Positions 33,811 through 34,446 of a stretch of DNA of 46,161 nt are shown here, in pieces. Under the pieces are notes generated by a model that was given only the letters and a program-made list of their open reading frames with translations, was not told where the DNA came from and ran no database searches. The stretch comes from Candidatus Bipolaricaulota bacterium (GTDB taxonomy: Bacteria > Bipolaricaulota > Bipolaricaulia > RBG-16-55-9 > DRXL01): the NCBI GenBank assembly GCA_030550495.1, contig JAUQPG010000002.1, positions 26,113 to 72,273 on the forward strand, in the 5' to 3' direction. The position numbers and the translations under genes were made by a program. Numbering within the stretch: position 1 is the stretch's first letter; every line of letters starts with the position of its first letter.

Positions 33811-34446
33811 TTAACTTGCTTTCACTCCTGCCTCGAGAGCAGCTTGCTTGAGACGTTCTAAGACGGGCTTGCCGCCAGGGTAGCACCCATCAATCTTAGC
33901 CTTCCCGGATGCAAGAGCCTCAGCGAACTCCTCACACGTCGGATACCCGCATGCCAAGCAATCAAATCCGGGCAAAACGGCGCGGAGCTTCGCCGCGGCG
34001 GGCGAGAGCGCCGGGGCTTTTGGCGCTTCTTCAGCCTTGCCCTCAACCTTGGGCCAGCCCATCACTAACGGCTTGAAGAGCTCAATCTTCAGATCGTTCT
34101 TCAGCGAGATCTGACACGACAAGACCCAGCCCTCCTTGCGCAATTTGTCACTTAAGGGGCCGAGCATTGCCGGGGTGATCTGTTCGGGTTTGAGCCCTTC
34201 TAGAACTTTGACACGACACGTCGCGCACGTGCCCTTGCCCCCGCACTGCGCAAAGAGATCATACCCAGCTTTCTTGAGGGCCTGCATTAAGTTCTGCTCT
34301 AAGGGTAAGACAAGCTCATTGCCATCGTTGACGATCTTGACCTTCGCTTCGCCCTCAACCGTGAGCAAGTTCTTGACCAACCCCAGGATGAGAGCAACGG
34401 AGATAGCCATCAGGGCCATCGTCGCTACCGGCACAAGATAGGCCAT
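33811..34446 (-). CDS. RnfB-like protein: TM + [2Fe-2S] ferredoxin domain + RnfB-type 4Fe-4S domain
   Basis: CGGKGTCATC...LSCQ and FDCLACGYPTCEEFAEALASGKAKIDGCYPGG; lacks the usual C-terminal 2x[4Fe-4S] ferredoxin module. Confidence 0.85.
   Translation of the reverse strand: MAYLVPVATMALMAISVALILGLVKNLLTVEGEAKVKIVNDGNELVLPLEQNLMQALKKAGYDLFAQCGGKGTCATCRVKVLEGLKPEQITPAMLGPLSDKLRKEGWVLSCQISLKNDLKIELFKPLVMGWPKVEGKAEEAPKAPALSPAAAKLRAVLPGFDCLACGYPTCEEFAEALASGKAKIDGCYPGGKPVLERLKQAALEAGVKAS

Follow-up and report, generated by a model that had tools for sequence, protein, structure and literature searches.

We found that a 211-aa protein encoded in a stretch of Candidatus Bipolaricaulota DNA (46,161 nt, hereafter the window) unites the input domain of NqrF and the FeS domain of RnfB in one polypeptide, and that this hybrid is a real, conserved subunit within a third branch of the RNF/NQR superfamily. 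A natural protein that carries both kinds of domain, in a complex that branches beside NQR, makes the transition from the ferredoxin-driven RNF to the NADH-driven Na+-NQR of many bacteria testable and may show a step in the evolution of one pump into the other. Moreover, relatives in which the pump core is deleted, with the input and output modules staying with cytochrome b, amount to a natural experiment on the role of each part.

Domain architecture of the hybrid subunit

33811–34446, (−) strand: hybrid RnfB/NqrF subunit (ATG start, 211 aa), consisting of a membrane helix (residues ~4–29), a [2Fe-2S] Fer2 domain (~33–126), a linker, and an RnfB-type FeS domain (~149–200)

The original prediction described this protein as a membrane helix followed by an NqrF-type Fer2 domain and the RnfB FeS domain, with no polyferredoxin, and Pfam, NCBIfam, the PDB, and a cysteine count all confirmed this layout. 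Specifically, Pfam matched both domains above the gathering score, Fer2 at residues 42–113 (E = 3.2e-11) and FeS (PF04060) at residues 157–189 (E = 3.7e-13), as the proposed HMM check had anticipated. The protein contains exactly eight cysteines, at positions 68, 74, 77, and 111 in Fer2 and 163, 166, 171, and 188 in FeS; all eight are thus taken, and Pfam detected no Fer4 domain. The FAD/NADH-binding FNR domain was likewise absent according to Pfam and NCBIfam. The NCBIfam nqrF model aligned with residues 8–123, including the membrane helix (E = 2e-18; whole-model score 66.5 bits, below the cut-off of 295), and the rnfB model aligned with residues 147–200 (E = 8e-13; 48.3 bits, short of the whole-protein cut-off of 68.7).

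In the PDB, the best relative proved to be Vibrio cholerae NqrF over the helix and Fer2 (residues 9–126; E = 9e-11), and RnfB entries matched residues 149–199. The helix–Fer2 part aligned with NqrF without a major break, with C68 pairing with C70 of the V. cholerae protein. An AlphaFold model (mean pLDDT 86) displayed a helix at residues 4–29, a Fer2 fold, and a small helical domain, and its top Foldseek match was NqrF. The hybrid subunit therefore keeps the NqrF order of helix and Fer2, and the place of the FNR domain is taken by an RnfB-type FeS domain.

Two findings had been named that would speak against a hybrid, namely a separate adjacent ORF for the 2×[4Fe-4S] module and a canonical rnfB in another complete rnf operon, and neither turned up. 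RnfC is the sole protein of the window with CX2CX2CX3C ferredoxin-type motifs, and a polyferredoxin on a neighboring ORF was ruled out by scanning for such motifs both in the window and in 20 kb of its contig that overlap its left end (the contig stops 274 bases to the right of the window). Across the window's genome (1.63 Mb, 91.8% complete), we found one RnfA/RnfE pair, no other RnfB, and no second rnf operon. The remaining two FeS domains of this genome belong to the corrinoid protein of the CODH/ACS system and to a ResB-like protein. At locus L003 (1258–3027, (+) strand), a ResB-like cytochrome c biogenesis protein combines N-terminal zinc-ribbon-like motifs with the PF04060 FeS domain, and at L001 (1649–3013, (−) strand) an acetyl-CoA synthase beta-subunit-like ORF lies behind the C-terminal part of an apparent homing-endonuclease intein.

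Distribution and conservation

Close relatives of the Fer2-FeS pair were present in all five families of the same Bipolaricaulota order (100 genomes of the phylum searched), and the same architecture recurred in at least seven further Bipolaricaulota genomes with 52–96% identity. A scan of 85,488 species, which relied on degenerate family-typical patterns and could therefore miss distant hybrids elsewhere, returned 14 loci; the record titles name Bipolaricaulota, Acetothermia, or Fraserbacteria MAGs for 13 of these and an uncultured bacterium for the remaining locus. All eight cysteines were invariant in 10 of 10 aligned sequences, with a distant member from family f4 having its first two FeS cysteines spaced two residues further apart. 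Seen from a single genome only, the gene might be taken for a decayed or wrongly assembled rnfB; however, its recurrence in other genomes and the order-wide occurrence of Fer2-FeS relatives, with the full cysteine set in all ten that were aligned, rule this out, and we consider the chance of such an artifact vanishingly small. The hybrid subunit of one relative (G057; L033:10678–11481, (+) strand) carries two tandem FeS domains.

Operon and neighboring genes

The operon runs on the (−) strand in the order Rieske protein, cytochrome b6, RnfC, RnfD, RnfG, RnfE, RnfA, hybrid subunit, and Fer2-PetD fusion, and thereby includes all of the RNF subunits A, C, D, E, and G. Listed by increasing coordinate, the genes other than that of the hybrid subunit are as follows:

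32757–33809, (−) strand: Fer2-PetD fusion; cytoplasmic Fer2 with four cysteines (residues 1–92), linker (~93–200), and the C-terminal part of cytochrome b (PetD) with three membrane helices and APWYF replacing PEWY as the Qo motif
34448–35044, (−) strand: RnfA/NqrE; C25 and C113 match the Acetobacterium woodii cluster ligands
35048–35731, (−) strand: RnfE/NqrD; C51 and C134 align with cluster ligands
35799–36488, (−) strand: RnfG/NqrC; FMN-attachment motif DAITGATYT
36501–37619, (−) strand: RnfD/NqrB; motifs NIFNPA, ATDPVTSP, and GATSA
37629–39053, (−) strand: RnfC (start codon re-set; the longer ORF spans 37629–39131); both [4Fe-4S] motifs kept, FMN glycine loop altered (GQAGFPT)
39055–39813, (−) strand: N-terminal part of cytochrome b6; four heme-ligand histidines, no cysteine for heme ci
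39810–40382, (−) strand: Rieske [2Fe-2S] protein; CTHLGC…CPCHGS

All four ligand cysteines of the intramembrane [2Fe-2S] cluster of RnfA/E are thus conserved, and the flavin motifs of RnfD differ even between members with the full operon. RnfC has an insert of ~38 aa ahead of its Fe-S domain and retains the Complex1_51K fold, KYPQG, and an NAxExEP-like motif; a lysine is lost, with a basic residue close by in most members. Given KYPQG, the NAxExEP-like motif, and this basic residue, RnfC might still bind NAD(H). For the cytochrome b genes, the best NCBIfam matches were ExtP and, for the PetD part, ExtQ, all below the cut-off.

In the window's genome, we found one copy of apbE (the flavin transferase for covalent FMN) and CODH/ACS proteins, from which a supply of reduced ferredoxin is to be expected. 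Regarding quinones, the genome yielded no match to the MqnA/D families and no menB above the cut-off; COX1 and UbiA-family genes are present. Two features flank the operon on the (+) strand: a cytochrome c with four CXXCH motifs (28928–30127), which is convergent to the operon and a possible partner of the Rieske protein, and riboflavin synthase-like and ribBA-like genes (40547–42369), which are divergent from this flavin-dependent operon.

Phylogenetic placement

A tree of concatenated RnfA, E, D, and G sequences, with references drawn from PDB chains, plasmid-collection records, and the Bipolaricaulota phylum, resolved three clades, namely RNF, NQR, and the Bipolaricaulota complex. RnfA and RnfE are paralogues, and each was used as the root for the other. 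The Bipolaricaulota clade joined NQR in both halves alike (support 99/94 each), and its grouping with RNF was rejected (p-AU = 0.0285 for RnfA and 0.0106 for RnfE). NQR alone formed a clade with support of 95/91 (RnfE) and 78/91 (RnfA), and on these sequences the Bipolaricaulota complex most likely sits just outside NQR. The earlier label of a chimeric RnfB holds for the subunit itself. The complex, in turn, is not an ordinary RNF with one odd subunit: NQR is the sister of its RnfA/E core, and further differences lie in RnfC, in RnfD, and in the cytochrome b genes. Judged by sequence, it is better described as an NQR-stem complex that carries a hybrid RnfB/NqrF subunit.

The Fer2 domains of the hybrid subunit and of PetD each formed a clade of their own (99/94 and 99/98). 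The mutual paralogy originally claimed for the two was not borne out, as trees placing them together or apart differed by 0.4 log units (p-AU = 0.5). Nor did a Fer2-only tree significantly unite the hybrid Fer2 with NqrF; three groupings were indistinguishable (p-AU 0.42–0.50), the domain being too short.

Family f7 possesses an NQR-type operon with a true NqrF (L057:1663–7134, (−) strand; also L058 and L059). Its A subunit, as seen in L057, keeps both RnfC-type [4Fe-4S] motifs, which the NqrA of Na+-NQR lacks according to the literature. The altered FMN glycine loop and the ~38-residue insert of RnfC are common to this f7 A subunit.

Reduced relatives and the f4 fusion

Seven relatives (G048, G047 of family f2, and G060 to G064 of family f5) have an operon without rnfG and rnfE, with half of rnfA gone; in G064, the genes upstream of rnfD fall off the contig. 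The hybrid subunit of these reduced forms gains an N-terminal part that corresponds to RnfA residues 121–186 (hhalign E = 1.5e-8, 38% identity), and profile comparison gave no match between this part and RnfE. Since the AlphaFold model of the RnfA-fused form (five rows) was of low confidence (pLDDT 62), the identity of the RnfA half rests on hhalign and BLAST. No PF02508 protein occurs anywhere in the genomes of the reduced relatives. The retained piece of RnfA spans the position of A. woodii RnfA R154, a residue that reportedly interacts with the mobile cluster of RnfB, and in Clostridium tetanomorphum the C-terminal helix of RnfA touches both the mobile domain and RnfD. RnfC, RnfD, the hybrid subunit, Fer2-PetD, and cytochrome b are all retained, and Fer2-PetD, cytochrome b6, and the Rieske protein stay with full and reduced operons wherever the contigs reach. 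In G048, the hybrid is split into a protein with the RnfA half and a Fer2 without FeS, followed by a soluble Fer2-FeS protein (L032:8405–9773, (+) strand), which makes three Fer2 genes in a row when Fer2-PetD is counted.

ApbE was absent from G047, G048, and G058 to G064, the nine genomes of the order that have a Fer2-FeS locus and lack RnfA/E. In comparison, it was present in seven of the nine genomes with RnfA/E, the two exceptions being 69% and 72% complete. The difference (7/9 versus 0/9, the latter with two f4 genomes included; Fisher p = 0.002, uncorrected for kinship) leaves out G055, an incomplete genome in which apbE is present and RnfA/E were not found. A single clade of reduced forms was rejected by the cytochrome b data (p = 0.023) and allowed by RnfC and RnfD together (p = 0.37); the sequences are therefore compatible with both one and two losses of the pump in this lineage.

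In family f4 (G058 and G059), which has no RnfA/E, the Fer2-FeS pair forms a single protein with a 30-kDa subunit of the complex I type:

L035:10358–11341, (+) strand: Fer2-FeS and 30-kDa subunit fusion (G058)
L036:90–1070, (−) strand: Fer2-FeS and 30-kDa subunit fusion

The genes around the G058 fusion form a group 4 hydrogenase-like/Mrp-type set, and 18 kb of this region encode no Fer4 protein; this arrangement supports a role of the Fer2-FeS pair in electron input that does not depend on cytochrome b.

Proposed electron route and alternative readings

We propose, at about even chances, that the hybrid is the subunit through which electrons enter a third kind of RNF/NQR complex, in which they would pass from ferredoxin via RnfA/E and RnfC to cytochrome b and quinone rather than to NAD+. 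A low-potential carrier, probably ferredoxin, would reduce the FeS domain, acting as an outer relay that takes electrons from soluble carriers, and Fer2, positioned behind the membrane helix as in NqrF, would hand them to the intramembrane [2Fe-2S] cluster of RnfA/E. From there, they would travel through RnfG and RnfD, with ion pumping coupled to this passage, to the two [4Fe-4S] clusters of RnfC and on via the Fer2 of PetD and the cytochrome b hemes to quinone. In known structures of NqrF and RnfB, the RnfA/E cluster is reduced by a mobile domain that directly follows the helix (PMC12174285, PMC11889175, PMC9588780), and since Fer2 holds this place in the hybrid, the FeS domain is most likely the outer relay. 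The altered donor to the RnfA/E clusters that had been deduced earlier is plausible.

Energetics provide the basis for the direction of flow that we infer. In known RNF and NQR complexes, pumping goes with electron transfer that starts on the RnfB/NqrF side and ends on the RnfC/NqrB side; the acceptor should therefore have the higher potential, and cytochrome b/quinone is the best candidate because Fer2-PetD, cytochrome b6, and the Rieske protein are conserved as neighbors. From the shared operon and its conservation, the Rnf-like and cytochrome b parts may form one physical complex. The reduced relatives have lost the pump loop (RnfG, RnfE, the first half of RnfA, and the covalent flavin), and the remaining RnfA half would anchor the hybrid subunit. 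Only the cytoplasmic-side route would then be left, probably as a non-pumping reductase of cytochrome b.

The same genes could be read as an NADH:quinone variant, in which NADH is oxidized at RnfC and electrons reach cytochrome b by way of the hybrid subunit and Fer2-PetD. Consistent with this, RnfC keeps the Complex1_51K fold, KYPQG, and both [4Fe-4S] motifs; the reduced relatives preserve RnfC, the hybrid subunit, and Fer2-PetD (with RnfD); and a 49-kDa subunit of complex I was not found in the window's genome (91.8% complete). However, given the pumping direction of known complexes, such a route would spend the ion gradient on a downhill reaction and is energetically less attractive than flow from ferredoxin to cytochrome b. 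The changes in RnfC at the FMN glycine loop and the lysine, as well as the occurrence of the f4 Fer2-FeS pair without nearby rnf genes, also argue against it, and we regard it as unlikely. Quite improbable in our estimation is an ordinary RNF, i.e., a ferredoxin:NAD+ oxidoreductase with an unusual RnfB and cytochrome b genes that are mere operon neighbors. Here, the NCBIfam rnfA, rnfE, and rnfG models do outscore their nqr counterparts, rnfC and rnfD pass their cut-offs, and the gene order is that of rnf, annotated as rnfCDGEAB in the one sentence that a 2012 genome paper gives to such an operon (PMC3267732); nevertheless, the RnfA/E core groups with NQR, and the cytochrome b and Rieske genes persist with the operon even after the loss of rnfG, rnfE, and rnfA.

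As to how the hybrid arose, Fer2, being common and mobile as a domain, could have been acquired separately in this lineage, without common descent with the Fer2 of NqrF, an explanation with which the ambiguous Fer2-only tree agrees. Since the RnfA/E core is sister to NQR, the helix and Fer2 align with NqrF as a continuous unit, and the hybrid gene is last among the core genes, the place held by nqrF, we consider convergence possible, if on the unlikely side. Alternatively, and this remains a doubtful suggestion, the hybrid may be a surviving intermediate of NqrF origin, with Fer2 inserted between an RnfB-like helix and FeS on the NQR stem and FeS later replaced by the NADH-oxidizing domain. 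This stepwise scheme differs from the published one, in which RnfB was lost and an unrelated reductase was recruited as NqrF (PMC4014512, PMC12174285) when an aromatic monooxygenase reductase was captured in a single step and became joined to the helix of RnfB.

Comparison with known systems

Like NqrF of the V. cholerae Na+-NQR (8a1t_F, 7xk3_F), the hybrid subunit has a [2Fe-2S] Fer2 domain immediately after its membrane helix, its gene comes after the A–E core genes, and its core partners are sister to those of NQR. It differs in having an RnfB-type FeS domain where NqrF has the FNR domain, and its operon includes cytochrome b and Rieske genes; moreover, NqrA carries no redox cofactors, whereas the RnfC homologue here keeps both [4Fe-4S] motifs. 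With RnfB (A. woodii, 9eri_B; C. tetanomorphum, 7zc6_B; Azotobacter vinelandii, 8ahx_B), it shares the helix and a CX2CX4CX16C FeS domain ending in PGG, but this domain is displaced by ~90 residues of Fer2, and the C-terminal module of two to seven [4Fe-4S] clusters is missing. The split b6 and subunit IV, the four heme histidines, and the Rieske protein resemble cytochrome b6-type Rieske/cytochrome b complexes, from which the operon departs in the N-terminal Fer2 of PetD, the lack of a heme ci cysteine, and the altered Qo motif.

Within the same phylum, the 2012 genome paper on Ca. Acetothermum autotrophicum places the Rnf genes beside Rieske and cytochrome b genes in one operon; its passages on these genes treat rnfB as ordinary and mention no hybrid, Fer2-PetD fusion, reduced forms, or kinship with NQR. 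In the open-access literature searched, neither a helix-Fer2-FeS subunit nor the reduced forms turned up. Partial NQR/RNF-like systems have been reported elsewhere in a survey of flavinylated systems (PMC8238504), where NqrB/RnfD is fused to the NAD-binding domain of NqrF and flavinylation is kept; in contrast, the reduced forms described here have no ApbE and keep RnfC, RnfD, the hybrid subunit, and cytochrome b.
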